Shown: positions 1,510 through 30,291 of the stretch, piece by piece
How the letters are laid out: the number at the start of each line of letters is the position of its first letter
Numbering within the stretch: position 1 is the first letter of the stretch
Assembly (NCBI GenBank): GCA_937873095.1
Contig: CALMVI010000069.1
Span: 1-32,106, forward strand
Source of the DNA: an uncultured Acetobacteraceae bacterium
Lineage (GTDB): Bacteria; Pseudomonadota; Alphaproteobacteria; Acetobacterales; Acetobacteraceae
DNA: 32,106 bases
Reading direction: 5' to 3'
Translations under genes and position numbers: made by a program
The notes under the pieces: generated by a model
Seen by the model: only the letters and a program-made list of their open reading frames with translations
The model's database searches: none
What the model was told of the DNA's origin: nothing

Positions 1510-1530
1510 AGGCCATGCGGGCCGTTCGGG

Positions 1531-1620
1531 CGGAGGCGGATGGGAATCGAACCCACCGCCCGCTATTGGCGGGCCGCTGGTTTTGAAGACCAGGGGGGCC
1601 ACCAGACCCCAATCGCCTCC
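1531..1620 (-). tRNA. selC: tRNA-Sec (anticodon TCA)
   Basis: The reverse strand folds into a 90-nt tRNA with the features specific to selenocysteine tRNA. The acceptor is long, with seven Watson-Crick pairs plus an A-C at the eighth. The D stem is 6 bp (GGGGTC/GGCCCC) with a 4-nt loop. The anticodon arm is CTGGT-CTTCAAA-ACCAG with anticodon TCA. The extra arm is about 20 nt and contains CCCGC/GCGGG. The T arm is GTGGG-TTCGATT-CCCAT, opening with a G-T pair as in the E. coli molecule. The discriminator is G and the CCA end is not encoded. It reads UGA as selenocysteine with SelA/SelB and a SECIS element. It lies about 60 bp after the lgt operon on the same strand. Confidence 0.93.
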
Positions 1621-14966: not shown

Positions 14967-16970
14967 CTAATCGGTCGTGGTGAACCGTTTGCCGTAGGGT
15001 ATGGCGCTGCCGCCTGCGCCAACGGCGGTGACGAACACGAGGTAGGGCGTTTTCGCGGACAAGCCGGTCACGTCCAGCGATGTGCCCTGGGTGACTGCCT
15101 GGGCCACGAAATAGGCCGGGTTGGACGGGTCCGGCAACGTGATGGTGACGAGGTACCCGGTGGCGCCGGCCGCGCGATGCCAGGTGACGGCGACGCTCGT
15201 GGAACCGGGCACCGCCTGTACCCGCGTCGCCAGGGCCGGCGGGTTGCCGACGCCGGCGCCAAGCTGGAACAGGCTGATCAGCAGGAAGTCGTCGCTGATC
15301 GATCCCCAGCCTGTCACGTCGTCGTAGCCGTATCCCGCGGTATAGCCTGCCGGCAGGCCGCCGGTCGGCAAGCCGTTGGTGCCGGACAAGATGTCGTGGT
15401 ACGTGCCGATCTTGTTGATGCCGATCGCGTAGGCGAGCGGGTTGAAAAACCCGATGGCCGGAAGGCCCGTTCCCTTCCGCGCCGCGTTGAGCACGCTGTA
15501 TGCGCCGGCCCAGAGCGGCGTTGCCAGGCTGGTGCCGCCGACCGCCAGCCAGCCGCCATTGATGCCCGAGTAGACCGAAGCACCCGTCACCGGTGCTGCG
15601 TCCGCGGCCAGGTCGGGCACGTTCCGCATCGTGCCCGATCCGCCGTTGGGCAGCGCGACCGACTGGTAGACGCCAGGGTTGTACTCGGTGATCTGGAAGC
15701 CAGGGGCGTTCCACAGGCTGCTTGCACCGCCGCCGGACGCTCCGTCCTGCTCGGCCAGCAAACCCCAGCCGGTCTCGAGCGCGTATTGCGAGCGGCTGGC
15801 GGTGAACAGCGTCGTCCCGCCCACGCCCGTCGCGTAGGGCTGGGAGGCGGGGTCTTCCACGTTCAGCGTGCTCTGCACGGCCTGGCCATAGGCTCCCTCG
15901 TCGCCGGAGCTGACGAACACCGCCTGACCCTGGGTCGCCAGCTGCACGAAGACGTTGTACTCGGCCTGCAGGGCGGGCGCGCCGGCCGTGGCCTCGTCGA
16001 TGCCGTAGGAAATGCTGATCGTCTGCGCGCTGTCGTCCTCCGCCATCATCGTCAGGCTGTCCAGCAGCGCGACCGAAAACGGGTCGTTGCCGTCCTCGTA
16101 CACCGTGATTTTGCCGAGCGTCGGATTGATGCCGATCAGCGTCTGCAGGTCGAGCACCGCTTCGAGTTCGACGCCGTTGTCGTCGACCGACCCGTCATAG
16201 CCGTCGACCCCCACCACGGTCACCGGCACTTTCGGCAATTTGTAGCGACGCTCGAACACGGTGAGGTCGGACGGGTTGAACCCGCCCTGTTCGAACAGCG
16301 CGGCCGTCTCCGGCTTGGCGCCCTGCAGGACAGGGATCGCGTAGGCGGTGCGGAAATCCGCAGGCGCATACGCCCCGCCCGCGCCGGTGCCGGCGGCACC
16401 CTGCGCCCGCGGACCGGAGGGCAGCCGGTAGAGCGGGGCGAAACGTTTCGTGCTGGACAGACCGATCACCCCGGAAACCCTGCCCGACAGGGCGTCCGGC
16501 AGTCTCGGCGTCACGAGCGGCGCGAAAGCCGGCTCGCCGGCAGGCGTCCGGTACGTCGCCATCCTGGTCGCGAACAGCTTTTCGATGGTGGCAACGGTGC
16601 CGGTGACGCTGATGCTGGTGCGGCCCCGCGTGACCGGGCCAGGCACGAGCCCCGCTTGCGCGGCCCAGGCACGCACCGCAGCGTAGTCCGTGGCGCTGGC
16701 GCCGAAACGCGCACCGAACTCGCGCGGCGTGATGTATCTGCCGTAGGCCGCATCACGCGGATCGGAAACCGCATGCGCCAAGGCTTCGGCACCCGCAGCG
16801 TCGCGCAGGGGAAGTGCGAGGACCAGCCGCAACGTCGCGGCCTGGTCCATCATCCCGGTCTGGCTGCCCAATGCGGGTTGCGGCGGCAGCGATTCGCTCG
16901 CCGCGTGTGCCGACGGCAGCCACGCCAGGATCGACACGGTCAGTGTCAAAGCGAGTCCGTGTTTCGACAT
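14967..16970 (-). CDS. Secreted sedolisin (peptidase S53) with C-terminal fibronectin-III-like domain
   Basis: The 667-residue preproprotein starts with a Sec signal peptide (about residues 1-23, ending AHA). The S53 prodomain (about 35-185, with RYITPREFGARFG) and a catalytic domain follow. Catalytic residues are visible: E270 and D274 in VELEAVLDLQ, oxyanion D357 in SSGDEG, and the nucleophile S481 in GGTSLATP. The Ca-binding closing motif DDVTGWGSISDDF is present. After about residue 575 comes a fibronectin-III-like domain. Sedolisins are acid serine proteases freed by self-removal of the prodomain, so this should digest external protein at low pH. GGAG seven bases before the ATG at 16970 decides the start. 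It is divergent from the AraC gene with 294 bp between. Complete and probably active. Confidence 0.95.
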   Translation of the reverse strand: MSKHGLALTLTVSILAWLPSAHAASESLPPQPALGSQTGMMDQAATLRLVLALPLRDAAGAEALAHAVSDPRDAAYGRYITPREFGARFGASATDYAAVRAWAAQAGLVPGPVTRGRTSISVTGTVATIEKLFATRMATYRTPAGEPAFAPLVTPRLPDALSGRVSGVIGLSSTKRFAPLYRLPSGPRAQGAAGTGAGGAYAPADFRTAYAIPVLQGAKPETAALFEQGGFNPSDLTVFERRYKLPKVPVTVVGVDGYDGSVDDNGVELEAVLDLQTLIGINPTLGKITVYEDGNDPFSVALLDSLTMMAEDDSAQTISISYGIDEATAGAPALQAEYNVFVQLATQGQAVFVSSGDEGAYGQAVQSTLNVEDPASQPYATGVGGTTLFTASRSQYALETGWGLLAEQDGASGGGASSLWNAPGFQITEYNPGVYQSVALPNGGSGTMRNVPDLAADAAPVTGASVYSGINGGWLAVGGTSLATPLWAGAYSVLNAARKGTGLPAIGFFNPLAYAIGINKIGTYHDILSGTNGLPTGGLPAGYTAGYGYDDVTGWGSISDDFLLISLFQLGAGVGNPPALATRVQAVPGSTSVAVTWHRAAGATGYLVTITLPDPSNPAYFVAQAVTQGTSLDVTGLSAKTPYLVFVTAVGAGGSAIPYGKRFTTTD

Positions 16971-17264
16971 GCATGTGCTCCGTTCGTGCAGGCGTAGCAT
17001 GGCCCGCAACGGTATTAACCGGCGCAGTCCAGGTGTAGCAACACGCGCTTCACCGGCAGGAACAGCCGCCAGACGCACGGCGCGAACGGCATCATTCCCC
17101 CCAAGCCGGCAACGTGATTGCGGGACCTTGGCGCGGCGAAACTCATTCCGCGCTGGACGTTGAGACAGTGTCGGACGTGGTGTCCGTCACGGGACGGCCG
17201 GCTTGATCCCTCGAACGGATTGCAGCCGGCGAGAGTTCGTCGCCCGACTCTCCTTGAGGGCATG
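16971..17264. other. Divergent intergenic region between sedolisin and AraC genes
   Basis: This 294-bp stretch has no convincing gene. It must hold the promoters of both flanking genes. I see GGAG before the sedolisin ATG and GAGGG before the AraC ATG, but no clear -35/-10 pair. Confidence 0.5.
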
Positions 17265-18182
17265 ATGGACCGTCGTCGCGATCGAACCAGCAGTTCCGGC
17301 CTCCTGACGCCTGAAACCGTCGTCGATCAGCTTCCGAGCAGGCCTGTTCTGACCAGCCTGGCTGACAGGCGGCAAGGCGTCGTGCTGCAACGCTACCGTC
17401 ATCCGCCGGCTGTCATCGATATTCCGGGCCTGAGCGACGCCCTTGTGGTGGCCCATCTGAGCGGGCCGGTGCTGGTCGAGGAAACCCGGCAAGGCGGCAC
17501 GACCGATCGGCAATGGACGGGGCCCGGACAGGTCACTGTGACACCGGCGGGCCAGCCGATCCGCCGTGTGCTGAAAGGCCGGCCAGACGTGGCTCTTCTG
17601 TTCATGCAGCCGGACTTCCTGCACGCCGTCGCCCAGGACGTCTATGGCGCGGAGGCGGACCGGTTGACCCTCGTTCCATGCCTTGGCGCGCCTGACGAGA
17701 CCGCCGCGCGTCTGGTGGGGCTGTTGCTGGCCGAGGCGGAGCAGCCTGGAACCGGCGGCGAGCTCATGGTGCAGAGCCTTACGCAGGCCCTGGCTCTGCA
17801 CCTGCTGCGATCCCACTCCAATCGCGCGTCACCGCCGCCGAGCCCGCCGCCAAGCCTGCCGGCATCGCGCTTGCGCCGCGTCGTCGAGCAGATGCAGACA
17901 GGCCTGGAGGGCGACCTCTCGCTCAGCCGACTTGCCGAGACGAGCGGGCTGAGCCAGTCCCAGTTCGTCCGCGCGTTTCGCGGCGCGACCGGCCAGCCGC
18001 CGCATCGCTACCTGGTCGGATTGCGGGTCGAGCGCGCGCGCGCTTTGCTGGAGCAGACCGACCTGCCCATCACCCTGATCGGCGTGCGCTGCGGCTTCGA
18101 ACAACCCAGCCACTTCTCCACGATCTTTCGCGCCAGGACGGGGTTCAGTCCCCGAGCCTGGCGGCAGGCCCGAAGGTCCTGA
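17265..18182 (+). CDS. AraC-family transcriptional regulator
   Basis: The 305-residue protein has a cupin-like ligand-binding N-terminal half (about 35-185) and a Pro-rich linker (190-199). A two-helix-turn-helix AraC DNA-binding domain follows (about 203-300): first HTH LSLSRLAETSGLSQSQFVRAF (218-238), second LIGVRCGFEQPSHFSTIFRA (271-290), closing with the family signature TGFSPRAWR. Two ATGs follow the GAGGG ribosome binding site; the second (17265) has the better spacing, the first is at 17262. It lies directly upstream, in the same direction, of the CMD and CMD/SMP-30 genes and probably activates them in response to their substrate. A direct repeat at 18232-18265 is a candidate binding site. 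Confidence 0.93.
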   Translation: MDRRRDRTSSSGLLTPETVVDQLPSRPVLTSLADRRQGVVLQRYRHPPAVIDIPGLSDALVVAHLSGPVLVEETRQGGTTDRQWTGPGQVTVTPAGQPIRRVLKGRPDVALLFMQPDFLHAVAQDVYGAEADRLTLVPCLGAPDETAARLVGLLLAEAEQPGTGGELMVQSLTQALALHLLRSHSNRASPPPSPPPSLPASRLRRVVEQMQTGLEGDLSLSRLAETSGLSQSQFVRAFRGATGQPPHRYLVGLRVERARALLEQTDLPITLIGVRCGFEQPSHFSTIFRARTGFSPRAWRQARRS

Positions 18183-18194
18183 TGCCGCGCAGGC

Positions 18195-18214
18195 CTGCCG
18201 CCCCGGCGGCAGGG
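18195..18214 (+). terminator. GC hairpin after the AraC gene
   Basis: CCTGCCG/CGGCAGG forms a perfect 7-bp stem with a 6-nt loop 12 bp after the AraC stop. There is no T-run after it, so it may be a weak or factor-dependent terminator only. Confidence 0.3.
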
Positions 18215-18231
18215 AATCGCAATCGCCAGCC

Positions 18232-18265
18232 GTTTTCCGCAAGTGCCGTCGGTTTTGCGAAAGTC
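18232..18265 (+). promoter_or_regulatory. Direct repeat spaced two helical turns: candidate AraC-type operator
   Basis: CGTTTTCCGCAAGT (18232-18245) and GGTTTTGCGAAAGT (18252-18265) match at 11 of 14 positions and are offset by 20 bp, so both would lie on the same face of the DNA. This is the usual arrangement for AraC-family activator sites. They lie about 50-80 bp before the start codon of the CMD gene. Confidence 0.5.
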
Positions 18266-18311
18266 GTGCCGCGTGCGGGTCCCTAGATGGACTGCATCAC
18301 CGGAGGACAGC

Positions 18312-18881
18312 ATGACGGACTCATCGGAATTTGGAACGTTCGGTATGTACAGGGAAGTCCCGGTTGGCGACATGCCGGCCGAGATGAAGGACGCTTACGA
18401 CACCACCATGAAACTGCGGGGCCAGGTGCCGGGTCCGCACAAGATATGGCTGGCCAATCCGGCCCTGTCGAAGACTGTCGTCCCGGTCGGCGCCTATTAC
18501 CAGACGCGATCGACGCTGACGAAGGCCGAGATCGAGATCGCGACGAACCTGGTGAACGCACGTTGGCTGGCGGTCTATTCCAACTACGAGCACGAGATGA
18601 TCGGCGAGGAGAAGGGCGGCCTGGCCCCGGAAAAGGTCGAGGCGATGATTGCCGGACTGCCCACCAGCTTCGAGGACGCCCGCCAGCAGGTCGTCTACGA
18701 ACTCGCTTCGGCGCTGGTGGCGCCCCGGGTCGTGCCGAAGGGTCTCTACCGACGGGCGAAGGACCTGCTGGGCGATGCCGGGATCGTGGACGTGACGATG
18801 CTGCTCGGCTGGTTCACCGGCGTGTCGCTCACGCTCAACGCCTTCGACGTGCCTTCCAACGCCGTGGGTCTGGACCAATGA
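18312..18881 (+). CDS. Carboxymuconolactone-decarboxylase-fold (AhpD-like) protein
   Basis: The 189-residue protein has the all-helical CMD/AhpD fold. Typical are the helix KAEIEIATNLVNARWLAVYSNYEHEMIG (71-98) with the conserved Y92-E93-x-x region and H94, and the later LYRRAKDLLGDAGIVDVTMLLG, the second family helix pair. The CxxC pair that makes AhpD a peroxidase partner is absent, so a lyase, isomerase or decarboxylase-type role is more likely than peroxide reduction. GGAGGA just before the ATG at 18312 decides the start. Its stop overlaps an ATG (ATGA) of the following gene, whose N-terminal domain has the same fold, so the two may form a heteromer. Substrate unknown. Confidence 0.87.
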   Translation: MTDSSEFGTFGMYREVPVGDMPAEMKDAYDTTMKLRGQVPGPHKIWLANPALSKTVVPVGAYYQTRSTLTKAEIEIATNLVNARWLAVYSNYEHEMIGEEKGGLAPEKVEAMIAGLPTSFEDARQQVVYELASALVAPRVVPKGLYRRAKDLLGDAGIVDVTMLLGWFTGVSLTLNAFDVPSNAVGLDQ

Positions 18882-18895
18882 AGGAGATGATTGAC

Positions 18896-20473
18896 ATGGA
18901 CGCAATCAACCTCGGCGGCCGTCTGCCGCTGCTCGATCCGGCCTCTCTGCCGACGGAGCGGAAGGCGGTGTACGACCGTCTTCGGGCCACCATGATACGA
19001 TGGGCCGATCAGTCCGGCTTCGAAAGCATGACGGAACAAGGCCGATTGATCGGGCCGTTCAATCCGGTCATGCTCAGCCCGGGCATCGCGCCGGCGTTCC
19101 TGGACCTGCAGGATGCGGAGCAGGCCAAGACCTCGCTGAGCGAGCAGACGAGGCAAGTCGTCATCCTCGCTGTGGGCGCCGTCTGGCGGGCTGGATACGA
19201 GCTTTACGCCCATGCCGCCGTCGCCCACAAAGCCGGCTTGTCGGACGACGTGATCCAGGGCTTGGCGGCCGGCGCGCTACCGGACGGATTGAGCGAGCAG
19301 GACAAGATCGCAGGCCGTTTCGCCCGGCAGCTTGCGGCCCAGCGCCGCGTCGATGCGGAGCTTTACCGCGCCGCCGAAACGGCTTTCGGAACGCAAGGCC
19401 TGGTGGACATCACCTTCCTGACCGGCATCTACCAACTTGTTTGCGGCCTGCTGAACGCGTTCGAGATCCCGGCGCCGGCTGCGACTTTCCCCGCACCACC
19501 GCGACCGGACCAGGACGATGGTCCGCGTCGGGCCAAGCTGACCACCGCCGCCTCGTTCGCGCCCAAGTCGTTCCTCGAAAACCTCGTCGTCCGCCACGAC
19601 AACTCCGTTCTCGTCACCTGCGTCACCACCAGGGAGCTGTTCTACGTTCCGCCCTGGTCCGGGGCGGCGCCTGTGGAGCCGATATGTCTGCATCGCTTCG
19701 AACAATTGCCGACCGGCGTGATCGAGATCGAACCGGACGTCTTCCTGATCTGTGCGGGCAATCTGTACACCACCCACGAATCTTTCATCTACCGGCTCGA
19801 TCTGCGCGCGTGGGAACCCGGCTCTGCGGCATCACCTGAGCTGGTGTTCCGCTTCCCCGACACGGCCAGAGCACCGAACGGCATGTGCCTGCTGGCGCCT
19901 GGCACGGCCCTGGTGGCGGATTGCTTTGCAAGCCTCATCTGGCGCGTGGACTTTCAGCCAGGCGGCGGTGGCATCCAGGCCCGAATCTGGCTCGGGCATG
20001 AGAGCATGGGGTATTTTCCTGGCAAGCTGAAGCCCGAACAGCCCGGCGTGAATGCCGTTCGCTACGCCCCGCGCACCAATCACCTGTACTACACGTCGAC
20101 CGCAAAGAAATTGCTGATGCGCGTGCCCGTCGCACCCGACACGCTGGACCCGTCCGGCCCGCCGGAACTGGTGGTCGCGGGGCGGATGTTCGACGATTTC
20201 TGCATCGACGAGGATGCGGGCGTGCTCTACGCCACCACCCACCGGCAGAACACGATCGACCGTGTGTCGATGGATCCAGGTGACAACAGCGGTTTCACGC
20301 AGAGTGTTGCCGGTGACCCGTTCACCGAAGCGTTGATCGGGCCTTCAAGCGGTGCATGGAGCCGCCGGTCCGGCGACTACGGCAAGGCTGCGTATTTCAT
20401 CTGCGACGGCGGCACTGCCTCACCCGCGCCGGGCGGTCCGCAACCGGCGAAGCTTCTTTGGGTGACGTTTTAG
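18896..20473 (+). CDS. Fusion of a CMD-fold domain and an SMP-30/gluconolactonase-like propeller
   Basis: The 525-residue protein has two unlike parts. Residues about 15-190 are a CMD/AhpD-like helical domain (EQTRQVVILAVGAVWRAGYELYAHAAVAHKAGL, with H106 and H111, no CxxC). After a Pro-rich linker (191-212) comes a six-bladed-propeller domain of the SMP-30/gluconolactonase group (about 215-525). It shows the metal-site-like motifs PNGMCLL with N328, GVNAVRYAP with N386, and FDDFCIDEDAGVLYATTH with D433/D434. The domain pair suggests two steps on one substrate, for example lactone opening and a decarboxylation or isomerisation. AAGGAG nine bases before the ATG at 18896 decides the start; ATGs at 18878 (overlapping the previous stop) and 18887 are in frame too. 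No signal peptide is seen, so it is probably cytosolic. Confidence 0.85.
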   Translation: MDAINLGGRLPLLDPASLPTERKAVYDRLRATMIRWADQSGFESMTEQGRLIGPFNPVMLSPGIAPAFLDLQDAEQAKTSLSEQTRQVVILAVGAVWRAGYELYAHAAVAHKAGLSDDVIQGLAAGALPDGLSEQDKIAGRFARQLAAQRRVDAELYRAAETAFGTQGLVDITFLTGIYQLVCGLLNAFEIPAPAATFPAPPRPDQDDGPRRAKLTTAASFAPKSFLENLVVRHDNSVLVTCVTTRELFYVPPWSGAAPVEPICLHRFEQLPTGVIEIEPDVFLICAGNLYTTHESFIYRLDLRAWEPGSAASPELVFRFPDTARAPNGMCLLAPGTALVADCFASLIWRVDFQPGGGGIQARIWLGHESMGYFPGKLKPEQPGVNAVRYAPRTNHLYYTSTAKKLLMRVPVAPDTLDPSGPPELVVAGRMFDDFCIDEDAGVLYATTHRQNTIDRVSMDPGDNSGFTQSVAGDPFTEALIGPSSGAWSRRSGDYGKAAYFICDGGTASPAPGGPQPAKLLWVTF

Positions 20474-20485
20474 CGGGCTTAAGAA

Positions 20486-20667
20486 GGCCAGGGGCGTCGT
20501 GCGAAGCACGCTAGAGCAGATCCCGATCAGACGGAATTGTCTGATCGGGTGAAGATGCTCGCAAAACAACGAGCTAGAGCCTGTGGAGTGAACGCAAGTG
20601 AACGGAACATGCTCTAGCGCGTGACGCCCCTGGACCCCGCTGGGGTTTGAACCCCCAGACCCCCGAT
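20486..20667. repeat. Nested intergenic repeat: palindrome inside a CCAGGGGCGTC...GACGCCCCTGG element
   Basis: Outer perfect 11-bp arms are CCAGGGGCGTC (20488-20498) and GACGCCCCTGG (20623-20633), followed by CTGGGG/CCCCAG arms and a run of C tracts. Inside is a second element bounded by CTAGAGC (20511-20517) and GCTCTAG (20611-20617), carrying a perfect 11-bp hairpin CCCGATCAGAC (20522-20532)/GTCTGATCGGG (20539-20549). The region follows a gene end and may terminate transcription. No coding potential is seen. The remaining bases to the S10 gene at 20731 hold its GGAGAGGA ribosome binding site. Confidence 0.8.
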
Positions 20668-20730
20668 TCCCAGGAAATAGGATCTCAAAAGCTTGACTTT
20701 GATGCGCCTTTAACTGCAATCGGAGAGGAA

Positions 20731-22311
20731 ATGAACCTCATCGTGCGGTCGGCTGCGGCAACCTGCCTGGTGGCGAAGGTCTCCTGCGCAGCAGCCCAGC
20801 CAAGCTGCACGCCCACCCCCGTCACACCCCTGCCGCCGCCCGTCACCCTGTCGGGCAGCGTCACCACGCGCGCGGGCAAGACGATCGGCTTGACGATCGA
20901 TACCGGGCTGCTCCGCGTGACCGGCGGCGGTGTCGCCGATGCAAAAAGCGTCTGGAACGTGCCGCCCGAGGACACGAGCAAGCCGCCAGCGACCGCGATC
21001 ATGTCCTACTACGCCTATTCGACCAAGGCGGCGTCCGGGGCGCGTCCGCTGATCTTCATCTGGGACGGGGGACCGGGCACGTCGACCCGCTCGATGCTGC
21101 TCAACAGCTTCGGACCCGTCCTCATCGCCGCGCCCGGGCGATCTCCGGGCGAACCGCCGGGCAGTCCGGTCCGCCCCAATCCCGATACGCTGCTCGATGT
21201 CGCCGACCTCGTTTTCGTCGACGCTCCCGGTACCGGGTTCGGCCATCTGGAAGGCTGCGATGCCGCGCGCACCTTCTACGGCGTCGATCAGGATGCCGCC
21301 GCCTTCGAGCGTTTCATCGCGACGTTCGTCCGTACCTACCATCGCGAGACCGCGCCGCTCGTGCTGTTGAGCGAAAGCTATGGAACGGTTCGTGCGGCCG
21401 TGGTCGCGCGGCGCCTGGTGGACGCGGGCGCCAAGCTGTCCGGCATCGTCCTCATCAGCCAGCTCATGGCGCTCGATGCCTGGTCGGACGGGTCGCGCGC
21501 CAACATCGGCACGGAGAACGCAGCCTTTCTGACGCTGCCGACCTACGCCGCCACCGCCTGGTGGCACGGCAGGTCGCCACATACCGGCACGCTGGAGGAA
21601 CGATTGCGCGAGGTGGAGCACTTCTCGCTCGAAACCTACGCCCCGGCGCTGCTGCGGGGGACCCTGCCGAACGCGGCGCGCCAGGCGCTCGCCGACAAAC
21701 TCGCCTTCTACACAGGCGTGTCGGCGAAGACCTGGATGGACGCGGACTTCCGCATCGAGGCAACCCGGTTCCGCGAGCTGCTCGAGGCGGAGGACCACAG
21801 GCTCGTCGGCCGGGAGGACACACGGAATGACGGTCCCGCTCCCGCCGTGACGGCAAGCGCGGTCGAGGACGATCCCACCCTGAAGCTGGCGCATGCCGCG
21901 CGAGAACGCGCGTTCGACACGTATGTGCGCGGCACGTTGACGTTCGGCGGCCGGCCGTTCAGCCCCTATATCGACGGGCCCGATACGCGCTGGACCATGC
22001 ATCACCTGACCGATCCTGCAGCCTGGCCCGACACCTACGTCAACGTGGCGCCCGATCTCGTCTCGGCGATGACGCACGACCCTGACATGCGCGTCCTCGT
22101 CGTGGGCGGCTATTTCGACCTCGCGTCGCCGTATTTCGGCGCTCCCTACCTCATCGCGCATCTGCGCCTGCCGGAAACGGCGAGGACCCGGCTTCAGTGG
22201 AAGGCATATCCGGCCGGCCACTCCGTCTACGAAGTCGATGCGGCGCGGCGCGACATGCACGACAGGATCGCGGCAATGCTGACCAGCCCCGCGTCGCCGC
22301 TGCAACACTGA
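20731..22311 (+). CDS. Exported serine carboxypeptidase (peptidase S10)
   Basis: The 526-residue protein begins with a signal-like segment (about 1-22, ending AAA-QPS). S10 hallmarks follow: substrate-binding WDGGPGTST (111-119), the nucleophile S216 in LSESYGT, D463 in GGYFDLASPY and H497 in AGHSVY, giving a full Ser-Asp-His triad. Canonical members read GESYGG; here the first Gly is Ser and the last is Thr. S10 enzymes release C-terminal residues and prefer acid pH. GAGAGG just before the ATG at 20731 decides the start. It is a logical partner of the S53 sedolisin for external peptide use, although the two are not in one operon. Convergent with the GloVer-repeat gene. Confidence 0.93.
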   Translation: MNLIVRSAAATCLVAKVSCAAAQPSCTPTPVTPLPPPVTLSGSVTTRAGKTIGLTIDTGLLRVTGGGVADAKSVWNVPPEDTSKPPATAIMSYYAYSTKAASGARPLIFIWDGGPGTSTRSMLLNSFGPVLIAAPGRSPGEPPGSPVRPNPDTLLDVADLVFVDAPGTGFGHLEGCDAARTFYGVDQDAAAFERFIATFVRTYHRETAPLVLLSESYGTVRAAVVARRLVDAGAKLSGIVLISQLMALDAWSDGSRANIGTENAAFLTLPTYAATAWWHGRSPHTGTLEERLREVEHFSLETYAPALLRGTLPNAARQALADKLAFYTGVSAKTWMDADFRIEATRFRELLEAEDHRLVGREDTRNDGPAPAVTASAVEDDPTLKLAHAARERAFDTYVRGTLTFGGRPFSPYIDGPDTRWTMHHLTDPAAWPDTYVNVAPDLVSAMTHDPDMRVLVVGGYFDLASPYFGAPYLIAHLRLPETARTRLQWKAYPAGHSVYEVDAARRDMHDRIAAMLTSPASPLQH

Positions 22312-25154: not shown

Positions 25155-26756
25155 CTAGAACGTCCTGACCAGGGAGAGCGACAGGAAATCACGGTCCGCC
25201 AGCGGCTGCAGGCGGGGCGCGCCGAGGTATCGGGAGTAGGACAGGCCGGCCTGCCAGACCGTCCGGTACGTGGCCGAAACCCCAAGCGTCAGGGTGCCGG
25301 CGCCTGCGTCCTCTCCGGCATCGACGCTCGATCGGCCGGCCAGGCCGATCCTGAACCCCGCCGGCAGCGACAGGTTGAGGTCCCGGCGCACGTTGAACCA
25401 GGTCGGCGTCAGGACCGCCTCCAGCGCCGCGCTGAACCCGGTGGAGCCAGGCAGGCGGTCGCCCGGGTTGGTCTGCACGGAGACCAGCTGCGTGGACGCC
25501 GCCTCGGCCTGCAGGTTGGCGGTGTCCCACAACCGTCCGGGCGGCAGCAGGCGTTCGTAGGATGCCAGCCCGGTGAGGGTCTGGCCGGTGGCAAAACCGC
25601 CCTGCGGCGGCAACAGGGCCGGCGTCGCAGACGCCGCCGGCAGCAGGCTCGGCGCCAGCGGCTGGAAGCGGCTGACCAACGGCAGGTTGCGCCTGAACGA
25701 CAGCTCGCCGGCCAGGGTGGCGTCGCCCGCATAGGTGCTGATGCTGGCCCCGAGCAGGTCGATGCCGCGCGGATACGCCAGCCGGTAGGTGTCCGCCGCC
25801 GCGCCCCGCTCGATCGCCGGCGATTTCGCGTCGTAGCGCAGCGCGTACAGACCCAGGCCGAGCGTGCCGCCATCGCGCCGCAAGGCCACGCCGAACTGGC
25901 CGAGCCCGGCGGCGGGCGGCGTGTCGTCCTGCGCCCGGAACAGGACACCGCCGCCGGCCGCCAACAGGCGCTGGCCGCCCACGTCCAGCACGTCGCTGGT
26001 GCTGAAATAGCTGGCTACCCCGGGGATGCGGTCGCGCCGCCACTCCGCCTGGTCGTAGGCTTCGAGCGACAGGCCGGAAGGCAGCTTAACCCGGATGTCG
26101 GCCTGTGCCACAGGCAGGTATAGCTGGCTGGCGGGCGCCAGAGGCTGGCTGGCCGCGCGGATCAGGTCCAAAGGGGCTTGCGCGCCGGCGATGCCGTCCT
26201 GCGCGAAAAACAGGCTTTCTCCCCAGAGCAAGGTCTGCCGCCCGATCCTGAGGCTTATCGGCAACCCGTCCAGGTCGAACTTGGTACGGACATAGGCGGG
26301 ACCGAGTTCGACCATGCCGCCCATGAGCCGGCGCACGTCGGCCGGGAACGCGTCGTGGGCGACGGTGACCGGGTTGAAGGTGGCGGGCGAACGGTTGGCG
26401 TTCGTGCCGTGATAGGCTGCGTCGTACCAGCCATCGGCGCCGATCTCCAGGCCGAACGGACCGCGTGTTGCGTCCAGTATCTCGGACACATCCAGGCGTT
26501 CGGAAATTGGGCCTTCTGCGAAGGCGCGGTCGCCGTCATCGGCGTTGACGGCGGACAGCAAGGCAGGATCCTGCGGTGCGACGCGCAGGCCGAGCGAGAC
26601 GCCCAGTTCGCTGTCCAGGCGCACATCGAAGCCGCCGATCGTGCCCAGATCGGCGGCAGCGGCGGGACCGGTGATGCCGCAGAGGATGCCGCCTGTCAGG
26701 GCGGCTGCACTGCGCAGACCGCGGGCGCGATGCCCGGCCAGCGCCGCCCGCAGCAC
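25155..26756 (-). CDS. DUF1302 outer-membrane-type protein
   Basis: The protein (533 residues from the chosen GTG) has a basic signal peptide ending GPAAAADL. A DUF1302 body follows with ELGVSLGLRVAPQDPALL, the motif RIGRQTLLWGESLFF and a long run of alternating strands, closing with SLSLVRTF, whose terminal Phe is typical of outer-membrane beta barrels. DUF1302 proteins are nearly always paired with a DUF1329 protein, as here, and are often linked to RND/MMPL-type exporters of hydrophobic compounds or lipids. The start is uncertain: an ATG at 26828 is also in frame but would share its CATG with the divergent DUF1329 start. The GTG at 26756, with GGAG upstream at a loose 12-base spacing, leaves about 70 bp for promoters. 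Confidence 0.85.
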   Translation of the reverse strand: MLRAALAGHRARGLRSAAALTGGILCGITGPAAAADLGTIGGFDVRLDSELGVSLGLRVAPQDPALLSAVNADDGDRAFAEGPISERLDVSEILDATRGPFGLEIGADGWYDAAYHGTNANRSPATFNPVTVAHDAFPADVRRLMGGMVELGPAYVRTKFDLDGLPISLRIGRQTLLWGESLFFAQDGIAGAQAPLDLIRAASQPLAPASQLYLPVAQADIRVKLPSGLSLEAYDQAEWRRDRIPGVASYFSTSDVLDVGGQRLLAAGGGVLFRAQDDTPPAAGLGQFGVALRRDGGTLGLGLYALRYDAKSPAIERGAAADTYRLAYPRGIDLLGASISTYAGDATLAGELSFRRNLPLVSRFQPLAPSLLPAASATPALLPPQGGFATGQTLTGLASYERLLPPGRLWDTANLQAEAASTQLVSVQTNPGDRLPGSTGFSAALEAVLTPTWFNVRRDLNLSLPAGFRIGLAGRSSVDAGEDAGAGTLTLGVSATYRTVWQAGLSYSRYLGAPRLQPLADRDFLSLSLVRTF

Positions 26757-26826
26757 TCGGCGGGGCTGCTCCGCCGCCCGCGCCGGCAACCTTCCGGGCC
26801 AAGCGGCCGTGTGCGATATCGGCCGC

Positions 26827-28194
26827 ATGAGCACGAAGACCCGGCGCAGGCCGGCAGAAGCGGTCCTGCTGGCTGCCACGCTGGCCCTGGCGGCGGCCGG
26901 CGCGCGTGCCGCCGTCACCCCGGACGCGGCGGCGGCGCTGCAGGGCCGGTTGACCCCTATGGGTGCCGAGCGGGCCGGCAACCAGGCCGGCACCATCCCG
27001 GCCTGGACCGGCGGCCTGGTCGGTCCGTCCTCGCCGACCGGCCTGCCCTGGACCGACCCGTTCGCCAGCGACCGTGAGCTGTTTACGATCGATGCCTCCA
27101 ACGTGGCCGCGCAGGCCGACAGGCTTCCCGAGGGGGCGCTGGCGCTGTTCCGACGATATCCCGACTACCGCATGCATGTCTTTGCGACACGCCGCACCGC
27201 GGCCTTCCCGACCGCGGTCTATGCGGCCGTCGCGCGCAACGCGGTGCGTGCGCATGCCGCCCCGTCCGGCATTGCCGAGGGCGTGGCGGGTGCGGCCGGC
27301 GGCATACCGTTCCCGATCCCCGGCAACGGCGCGGAGGCGATGTGGAACCACCTGCTCGCCTTCCGGGGCGCCGCGCGCGAAGCCAGCATACGCACCTACG
27401 TGGCGCCAGGAGACGGCACGACGGAGCTGACGGCGGGCTACAGCGAAATCACCGACTTCCCCTACTACGCCCCGGGGGCGACGCCTGAGACAATCGGCCC
27501 ATACTACTTCAAGACCAGGCGCCTGATGGACGCGCCGGCCGCCCTCGTCGGCCAGGGCTATATCGGCTGGCAGCCGCTCGACGTCGCGGCGCAGCCCTTT
27601 GTCGCGTGGCTGAACCATCCCGGCGAGCACAGGGTGCGGCGGGCGCCGTCCTTCTCCTACGACACGCCGGACCCGACCGCGTCGGGCTACGAGTCGATGG
27701 ACGACTACTACCTGTTCTTCGGCGGCCAGGACCGTTACGTGTTCCGCCTGCTGGGCAAACGCGAGATGTTCGTCCCCTACAACAACAACCGGCTGGCGCT
27801 CATTCCTGCGGCCCAGGCCATGGGCCCGGTGCACGCCAACCAGGACGACATACGCTACGAGCTGCACCGCGTCTGGGTCGTGGAGGGCACTCTGGCTCCC
27901 GGCAAGCACCACGTGGCGCCGCGCCGGCGGTTCTACCTGGACGAAGACAGCTGGACTGCCGTGTACAGCGAGGGCTGGGACGAGGACGGCAAGCTGTGGC
28001 ATTTCGCGCAGTCGACCATGATGGCCATGCCGGGCGTGCCGGCGGTGATCGGCGGAAGCGAGTTCTTCTACGACCTGATCCAGGGCGGCTACTGCTACGA
28101 CTTCGTCTTTTCTCCCGGCCGCTACAAGATCACGCCGCTGCATCCCGCCGACGCCTTCGGCCCCGATGCGATGGCGGCCGACTCGCTGCGGTAG
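26827..28194 (+). CDS. DUF1329 periplasmic protein
   Basis: The 455-residue protein has a signal peptide (residues 1-28, ending ARA-AV). DUF1329 hallmarks follow: LTPMGAERAGNQAGTIPAWTGG near residue 40, YPDYRMHVFATRRTAAFP near 115, GNGAEAMWNHLLAFRG near 170, FVPYNNNRLAL, and FYLDEDSWTAVYSEGWDEDGKLWHF. These proteins have a LolB/LolA-like fold and are inferred to carry lipids or other hydrophobic ligands between membranes together with the DUF1302 partner. The ATG at 26827 has no clear ribosome binding site and shares CATG with a possible start of the divergent DUF1302 gene. The stop codon TAG is part of the palindrome that follows (TAGAGCATG). Confidence 0.92.
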   Translation: MSTKTRRRPAEAVLLAATLALAAAGARAAVTPDAAAALQGRLTPMGAERAGNQAGTIPAWTGGLVGPSSPTGLPWTDPFASDRELFTIDASNVAAQADRLPEGALALFRRYPDYRMHVFATRRTAAFPTAVYAAVARNAVRAHAAPSGIAEGVAGAAGGIPFPIPGNGAEAMWNHLLAFRGAAREASIRTYVAPGDGTTELTAGYSEITDFPYYAPGATPETIGPYYFKTRRLMDAPAALVGQGYIGWQPLDVAAQPFVAWLNHPGEHRVRRAPSFSYDTPDPTASGYESMDDYYLFFGGQDRYVFRLLGKREMFVPYNNNRLALIPAAQAMGPVHANQDDIRYELHRVWVVEGTLAPGKHHVAPRRRFYLDEDSWTAVYSEGWDEDGKLWHFAQSTMMAMPGVPAVIGGSEFFYDLIQGGYCYDFVFSPGRYKITPLHPADAFGPDAMAADSLR

Positions 28195-29417: not shown

Positions 29418-29463
29418 ATGGGGCCGTGGCTGTCCATCCATGTCGGCCGACCAGGAGAGCGCC

Positions 29464-29808
29464 ATGATCAAGTTCACCATCCTGCTGCGGCGCAAACCGT
29501 CGATGACGCACGACGAGTTCGTCGCCTACCACCGCGAGCGGCACGCGCCGCTGTTCTGCGCGCTGCCCGCCGTACGGCAACACGTGCGGCGCTACGTCCA
29601 ATGCCACACCGTACCGGCGTCCATCCCAGGCCTGCCACCGGTCGCGTTCGACGGCATCACCGAACTGTGGTTCGACGATTTGGCCGGGTTGGAAGCGGTG
29701 TTCACTGCCGAAAGCTACATGGAGACGATCCGGCCGGACGAAGCGCAGTTCCTGAATCTGCACGCCTGCGCGTTCGTGCTGTCCACCGAAAGCGTGCTCA
29801 TCGCCTGA
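29464..29808 (+). CDS. EthD-domain protein
   Basis: The 114-residue protein is a single ferredoxin-like EthD domain: IKFTILLRRKPSMTHDEFVAYHRERHAPL (2-30) with the conserved YHRERHAPL, and later FDGITELWFDDLAGLEAVF. EthD-type proteins accompany cytochrome P450 or other oxygenases in degradation clusters, or act as small cyclases or isomerases. AGGAGAG before the ATG at 29464 decides the start, rather than the in-frame ATG at 29440. It is followed 30 bp later by a DUF4188 gene in the same direction and is divergent from a TetR gene, so it is likely induced by a xenobiotic or aromatic ligand. Confidence 0.87.
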   Translation: MIKFTILLRRKPSMTHDEFVAYHRERHAPLFCALPAVRQHVRRYVQCHTVPASIPGLPPVAFDGITELWFDDLAGLEAVFTAESYMETIRPDEAQFLNLHACAFVLSTESVLIA

Positions 29809-29838
29809 CCGACGCAATCTTCACCTGGAAGGCACGCC

Positions 29839-30291
29839 ATGACCTATCCACGCCACTCCGTCGACCTGTCCGGCACCCCCGACCTAGTTGTGGTCTATCT
29901 CGGCTACCGCGCCAAGGGCCTCAAAGGCGCGCGCAGCCTGCTGCGCATCGGCCGCGGCCTGCGCTCGATCAAGACGAACCCGCCTGACGGGCTGCTGTCG
30001 CACGAGGACCTCTGGTTCGGCCTCATGCATCCGGGCTTCCGGCAGTACTGGCGTGACTTCGAGAGCCTGGAGGCATTCACCCGGGCGCCGCAGCATGCGG
30101 CGTGGTGGCGCGACTTCGCCCGGGACTCAGGCGGCGGGGGCATCTGGCACGAGACCTACCGGCTGCGTGGCGGCATGGAGGCCATCTACTCAGGCGTCCC
30201 CAAGATAGGTTTTGCCAGCTTCGCCCCTGAACGCACGCCAACCGGACCGTTCATGAGCGCCAGGCAGCGCGTCGAGGCAGGTGTTTGCTGA
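29839..30291 (+). CDS. DUF4188 (monooxygenase-like dimeric alpha-beta barrel) protein
   Basis: The 150-residue protein matches DUF4188. It shows DLVVVYLGYRAKGLKG (15-30), LLSHEDLWFGLMHPGFRQYWRDFESLEAF (52-80), PQHAAWWRDFA and GGGIWHETYRLRGGMEAIY (about 98-116). Members are annotated loosely as monooxygenase-family or phenylacetaldoxime-dehydratase-like proteins; the reaction is not established. GGAAGG lies nine bases before the ATG. It is in one transcription unit with the EthD gene under the TetR gene. The following 207 bp hold no gene; a short hairpin AGGGG/CCCCT near 30391-30406 could help end transcription. Confidence 0.85.
   Translation: MTYPRHSVDLSGTPDLVVVYLGYRAKGLKGARSLLRIGRGLRSIKTNPPDGLLSHEDLWFGLMHPGFRQYWRDFESLEAFTRAPQHAAWWRDFARDSGGGGIWHETYRLRGGMEAIYSGVPKIGFASFAPERTPTGPFMSARQRVEAGVC

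Follow-up and report, generated by a model that had tools for sequence, protein, structure and literature searches.

Among bacterial enzymes, proteins of the carboxymuconolactone decarboxylase (CMD) fold and propellers of the SMP-30-like kind are common and go by vague names; the propeller of the SMP-30/gluconolactonase family has six blades. The closest described systems in which a CMD fold stands next to, or is fused with, a lactone-handling enzyme are PcaC, PcaCD and PcaDC; AhpD-type peroxidases also have the CMD fold, together with a CxxC redox motif. The locus described here lies in a stretch of 32,106 nucleotides from an uncultured Acetobacteraceae bacterium (assembly GCA_937873095.1, contig CALMVI010000069.1, positions 1 to 32,106), referred to below as the window, and comprises a gene for an AraC-family regulator, one for a stand-alone CMD-fold protein (CMD1) and one for a second CMD domain (CMD2) fused to a beta-propeller. 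As in the Pca systems, a related hydrolase is present in many units of this kind; unlike in those systems, a propeller replaces the alpha/beta hydrolase in the fusion, and there are two divergent CMD paralogues, neither of which matches the PcaC model (TIGR02425) at E values up to 1. A literature search found no description of a conserved CMD-propeller unit, and the papers mentioning both carboxymuconolactone and gluconolactonase were, in their accessible parts, community or metaproteome studies.

The unfused counterpart of this locus was found in other bacteria. A scan of a genome collection provided seven loci, five from Mycobacterium, one from an Acidipila metagenome-assembled genome and one from Actinacidiphila. 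A CMD1 orthologue (67-73% identity) stands beside a propeller (48-63%) in all seven, and CMD2 (39-56%) is present in three, the gene order in Actinacidiphila being CMD2-CMD1-propeller. Within Mycobacterium, the genus of locus L003, the propeller profile at 1e-20 matched 25 of 248 genomes (20 below 1e-170, three near 1e-115 and two with fragments), and the CMD1 profile matched 21 of the 248, 20 of them below 1e-100 and one, an outlier at 1e-48, lacking any match to the propeller. The 20 genomes with a strong CMD1 match are the identical set to the 20 with a strong propeller match, and the two genes lie less than 650 bp apart in every one of them, with CMD2 between them in 8 units. As for the two CMD genes, a stop/start overlap is possible in 10 of the 11 loci having both. 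On the basis of this adjacency and co-occurrence, we conclude with high confidence that CMD1 and the propeller, sometimes with CMD2, form a conserved unit.

Note that the propeller or the fusion led to the loci, so that the set is biased against CMD-only cases; the CMD1 profile search is the check on this bias. The 20 Mycobacterium loci are not 20 independent events, several of them sharing wider flanks. Four rows were dropped from the counts, L005 and L008 duplicating L058 and L059, and L079 and L080 carrying partial propellers; the latter two, from two Mycobacterium genomes, may be copies in decay. L081 (31% identity) was also dropped from the counts, kept apart in the residue comparison and included in profile A5. 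Owing to its closeness to L060, L061 was omitted from A5, but from nothing else.

Concerning the wider distribution, the propeller profile found only the source genome itself among 385 genomes drawn from its class (E 1e-30) and among 398 drawn from its phylum (E 1e-20). In the phylum of Acidipila, it matched no genome but that of Acidipila out of 297, and in the family of Actinacidiphila 2 of 249. The propeller tree pairs the window and Acidipila sequences as sisters (100/99), with the caveat that the window row is long and the make-up of the Acidipila locus unusual; the CMD1 and CMD2 trees did not resolve this pairing. The sister relationship of the two propellers, together with the patchy spread, suggests that the unit was probably moved by horizontal transfer.

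The fusion itself is taken as real. The codons from 19448 to 19610 include no ATG, GTG or TTG and no frame break, which leaves the propeller without a separate start. That two genes were joined by an error of sequencing or assembly is extremely unlikely given this continuous, startless frame, even though the fusion rests on a single assembly and no second fused copy was found in the genome-collection, related-genome, plasmid and locus searches (since the genome searches scored no more than the few top first-look candidates of each genome, weak relatives may be missed). Some match to the fusion was obtained in 47 of 100 related genomes, its own included; outside its own genome, the matches listed concerned the CMD part, except in G030, where only the propeller part was matched (33% identity). 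The fusion had no match in either of the two congeneric genomes (completeness 85% and 89%), and none of 81 matching plasmid records covered 80% of it. The window is the only one of the 14 loci with CMD2 and a propeller in which the two are fused. The first-pass annotation of this DNA had proposed searching for the same fusion and its neighbours across genomes, and had regarded a fusion unique to the strain and due to an assembly error as fatal to its idea: the search gave no second fusion and revealed unfused CMD1/propeller neighbours instead, and the unbroken frame gives no indication of an assembly error.

Family PF02627 (CMD) is recognised in the N-terminal domain of the fusion above its Pfam gathering cut-off (Table 1). 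CMD1 has no Pfam match at E values up to 1, and PF02627 matches none of eight CMD1 sequences, which makes CMD1 a member by fold only. Its profile is homologous to that of CMD2 (hhalign 99.1%), and its model (mean predicted local distance difference test score, pLDDT, 68.5) matches AhpD/CMD structures with a best Z of 12.6; no Foldseek match was obtained at E 0.001, and the Z of 2.9 between the model and the CMD decarboxylase 2af7 does not separate the families. By profile comparison and fold, CMD1 is thus a CMD homologue despite the missing Pfam match. The CxxC motif is absent from all 23 CMD1 and all 14 CMD2 sequences, in agreement with what had been read from the two window domains, and the CMD1 of the window has no cysteine at all. 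The invariant residues are H43 and E93-H94-E95 in the alignment of 23 CMD1 sequences, and Y107, E108, Y110, A111 and H112 in that of 14 CMD2 sequences. H94 aligns with H112, and both line up with the histidine of the CxxCxxxH motif of AhpD-type chains; as judged from these alignments, the cysteines of such chains have been lost and the histidine retained.

The propeller is clearer by fold than by Pfam score. The SGL family PF08450 scores 19.1 bits in the fusion and 21 bits in a further search, in which all eight propeller members tested were matched with a best E of only 0.00017; both scores are under its cut-off of 26.3. The fusion was modelled from 11 sequences (mean pLDDT 84.3, predicted template-modelling score 0.62), and the fold search made with this model speaks for the propeller only (residues 214-531). 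The closest solved relative by both sequence and fold is 2p4o (NPUN_F0524 of Nostoc punctiforme; profile E 5.7e-29; Z 37.3 over 290 residues, 2.6 A), a propeller-only chain of 306 residues titled putative SMP-30 family lactonase. It is followed by the fungal biosynthetic enzymes EupfF and PycR1 (7x36 and 7x2n), whose PDB titles read hetero-Diels-Alderase and Diels-Alderase (profile E 3.1e-11 and 4.2e-10; Z 34.5 and 33.7), with an identity of about 20% only. The lactonases come behind by sequence and fold, with Z values of 28-29 to SMP30, Drp35 and RPA3624 (29.1 for the last).

Residues E234, N334, N392 and D440 do not vary among 27 propellers, and the distant L081 has them too. N392 and D440 were aligned to the N and D of regucalcin 2ghs, and E234 and N334 were mapped only through 2p4o, which has all four positions in common with the propeller; EupfF and PycR1 keep the positions of the E, N392 and D440 and have Q at that of N334. 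The metal residues of SMP30 we take to be E18, N154 and D204, with N103. The SMP-30/gluconolactonase family (SMP30, Drp35, RPA3624 and xylonolactonase) shares the propeller fold and, as far as the alignments go, the metal-site positions, which the propeller here would keep as a candidate E/N/N/D site; it differs from that family by its score under the SGL cut-off and by a lower fold score than to 2p4o and the two fungal enzymes. Distant propeller relatives were also seen on two plasmids, at 7674-8609 of L108 (the IncP plasmid pAKD16), beside alcohol dehydrogenase and enoyl-CoA hydratase genes, and at 3383-7828 of L109 (a plasmid of Agrobacterium sp. RAC06), near AraC, LysR and SDR genes. These neighbours, oxidoreductases and regulators, point to no substrate.

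Regarding accessory genes, none of the 31 loci scanned gave a match to the AraC protein of the window at 1e-12, and the regulators of the 20 Mycobacterium loci are of the TetR type in 13 and of the LysR type in 4, the remaining 3 having neither at the cut-off. AraC, which had been presented as a defining part, is thus rejected as a core part of the unit, and may at most control it locally. Downstream, a PcaD (enol-lactonase)-like alpha/beta hydrolase is found in the Actinacidiphila locus and in 13 of the 20 from Mycobacterium, where three of the matches are short; in the Acidipila locus, an amidohydrolase (PF04909) follows CMD2. Since this hydrolase often accompanies the unit, a lactone or ring-product chemistry is favoured and plausible.

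There is, in our view, an even chance that these genes encode a small-molecule enzyme unit in which CMD histidine acid-base and metal-propeller chemistry act on consecutive intermediates. Confidence in sequential catalysis by CMD and propeller is moderate; in any named substrate it is low. CMD1 and CMD2 would probably assemble as a hetero-oligomer from their coupled genes, the conserved H94 and H112, with a nearby Glu, serving proton transfer in a decarboxylation, isomerisation or elimination of what may be a ring or lactone-type intermediate. Through its SMP-30-like E/N/N/D site, the propeller would then carry out hydrolysis or elimination on the CMD product. The CMD2-propeller fusion of the window could allow an unstable intermediate to be handed between sites by channelling, and the PcaD-like hydrolase, where present, might add a further step.

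Several observations weigh against this reading. CMD2 is missing in 12 of the 20 Mycobacterium units, the three Mycobacterium loci with matches near 1e-115 (L075-L077) have CMD2 and a propeller without CMD1, and in a Streptomycetaceae locus (L078) the propeller stands beside two SDR genes without any CMD, so that no single fixed pathway is implied. In Acidipila, the propeller gene is divergent from the CMD genes, which speaks against obligatory co-translation; the window genome has only short matches (32-43%) to the companion hydrolase; and among characterised proteins, those closest to the propeller are not lactonases. The units without CMD2 and the locus without CMD would also suit CMD proteins that are non-enzymatic scaffolds or ligand sensors, with the propeller alone being catalytic. 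We hold this to be improbable, CMD1 being the most conserved part of the unit and its invariant H43 and E93-H94-E95 resembling an active site. A pair of antioxidant AhpD-like peroxidases, to which the structural matches of the CMD1 model could point, is rejected on the missing CxxC and has a next to negligible probability. As for a muconolactone/beta-ketoadipate unit, made of a PcaC-like decarboxylase and a propeller acting as enol-lactonase, its support comes from the companion hydrolases, of which the two tested, those of L003 and Actinacidiphila, have PcaDC, PcaCD and PcaD as their best NCBIfam matches; their scores do not exceed 60.3 bits, against cut-offs of 256-430. Besides the missing PcaC match of the CMD proteins, neither PcaC nor an intradiol dioxygenase (PF00775) was found at E 0.001 in the window genome, which is 99.79% complete, the same searches being positive in 9 and 4 of 14 control genomes, respectively. 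This makes muconolactone chemistry unlikely in this organism, as far as its gene content tells, and such a unit very unlikely altogether. What had been imagined as a two-step lactone-processing unit thus keeps its CMD/propeller pairing and its lactone or ring-product leaning and loses its muconolactone substrate.

Nor does the propeller look like an ordinary SMP-30 lactonase, as had been supposed, since 2p4o and the two fungal Diels-Alderases match first by sequence and fold. It might instead be a lyase or pericyclase of the EupfF/PycR1 type making or using a quinone-methide-like intermediate, the unit then serving tailoring or detoxification and not lactone hydrolysis. According to a review, cycloaddition in the eupenifeldin and pycnidione pathways is preceded by dehydration of a tropolone alcohol to a quinomethide, carried out by the hetero-Diels-Alder (hDA) enzyme (PMC9503010, which uses neither of the names EupfF and PycR1). 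The low identity of the fungal enzymes and their Q at the invariant N334 count against such a role, as does the fact that 2p4o, the closest relative, is itself uncharacterised. Five of 27 loci, all from Mycobacterium with shared flanks, have a chalcone/stilbene-synthase-like gene, which could fit this chemistry, at a distance of 6-7 kb from the propeller; the best NCBIfam match of this gene is DpgA, at 210 bits against a cut-off of 425, and an SDR gene likewise lies within 8 kb of the propeller in the same five. In the other 22 loci, that of the window among them, the examined flanks (up to 8 kb, in several loci far shorter) did not contain the synthase-like gene, which may reflect core synteny only; because the five loci share flanks, it leaves the probability of a pericyclase unchanged. 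We regard this explanation as rather unlikely.

The layout of the locus is given in Table 1. As had been noted from the sequence, the regulator, the CMD protein and the fusion follow one another in one direction. Coupled translation, claimed for all three genes, holds for CMD1 and the fusion, whose stop and start are joined by an ATGA overlap at 18878-18881, and not for AraC and CMD1, since CMD1 starts 129 nt after the end of AraC. An AAGGAG, similar to a ribosome-binding site, directly follows the CMD1 stop and could equally well serve the better spaced ATG at 18896, which leaves two possible starts for the fusion. AraC has candidate ATG codons at 17262 and 17265. The overall RNA fold of the AraC-CMD1 gap is no better than that of shuffled sequences (z 0.47). 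A scan of positions 17000-20700 gave no promoter-like site, and one terminator-like site, within the AraC gene, vs. 2.2 expected. At third codon positions, the GC content of the three genes (0.79-0.84) is slightly under that of most of the nine other window genes measured (0.83-0.94).

Table 1. Coordinates of the AraC, CMD1 and CMD2-propeller features in the window, and of the synthase-like gene found near five Mycobacterium units.
Feature	Position	Strand	Remarks
AraC-family regulator, 306 aa	17262..18182	+	HTH_18 1.4e-21; local partner, not conserved with the unit
AraC-CMD1 gap, 129 nt	18183..18311	+	Short GC-rich hairpin directly 3' of the AraC stop; GGAGG, ribosome-binding-like, before CMD1
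CMD1, stand-alone CMD/AhpD-fold protein, 189 aa	18312..18881	+	Orthologue identity, fold, alignment of 23
CMD2-propeller fusion, 531 aa from first ATG	18878..20473	+	Start 18878 or 18896
CMD2 domain of fusion	18878..19468 (end approximate)	+	PF02627 28.9 bits (gathering cut-off 23); alignment of 14
Pro-rich linker	19469..19528 (limits approximate)	+	No ATG/GTG/TTG codon; low model confidence, residues 204-216
Beta-propeller domain	19529..20470	+	Candidate metal residues E234, N334, N392, D440 (fusion numbering)
Chalcone/stilbene-synthase-like gene	L007 15404-16528	-	Also L059, L061, L062, L066

No clear mobile-element ends were seen among the repeats around the unit; inverted repeats with a CTAGAGC core lie directly behind the fusion (20509-20622). 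The unit is flanked by two peptidase-like genes, one of the pro-kumamolisin type (14967-17078, minus strand) and one for a serine carboxypeptidase S10 (20647-22311, plus strand). Elsewhere in the window, a DUF1302 gene (minus strand) adjoins a DUF1329 gene (plus strand), their longest open reading frames overlapping (25155-28194); at 29440-30291 (plus strand), an EthD-domain protein precedes a 'Monooxygenase af470-like' one (PF13826), with a TetR gene adjacent; and ARAGORN called a selenocysteine tRNA with anticodon TCA (1529-1620, minus strand).

As a whole, the CMD-propeller pairing spans Actinomycetota, Acidobacteriota and the source genome, with differing regulators, changing gene order and one natural fusion. 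One conjecture, which we consider a long shot, is that a CMD protein without CxxC makes a short-lived enol or quinone-methide-like intermediate, captured or quenched by a propeller akin to the fungal hetero-Diels-Alderases; if true, the fusion would be a natural channelling form, and the fungal enzymes would gain bacterial cousins with a conserved partner. The finding links bacterial propellers to fungal Diels-Alderases, and because the pairing assigns each of the two a partner and a few invariant residues, it makes the CMD/propeller chemistry directly testable.

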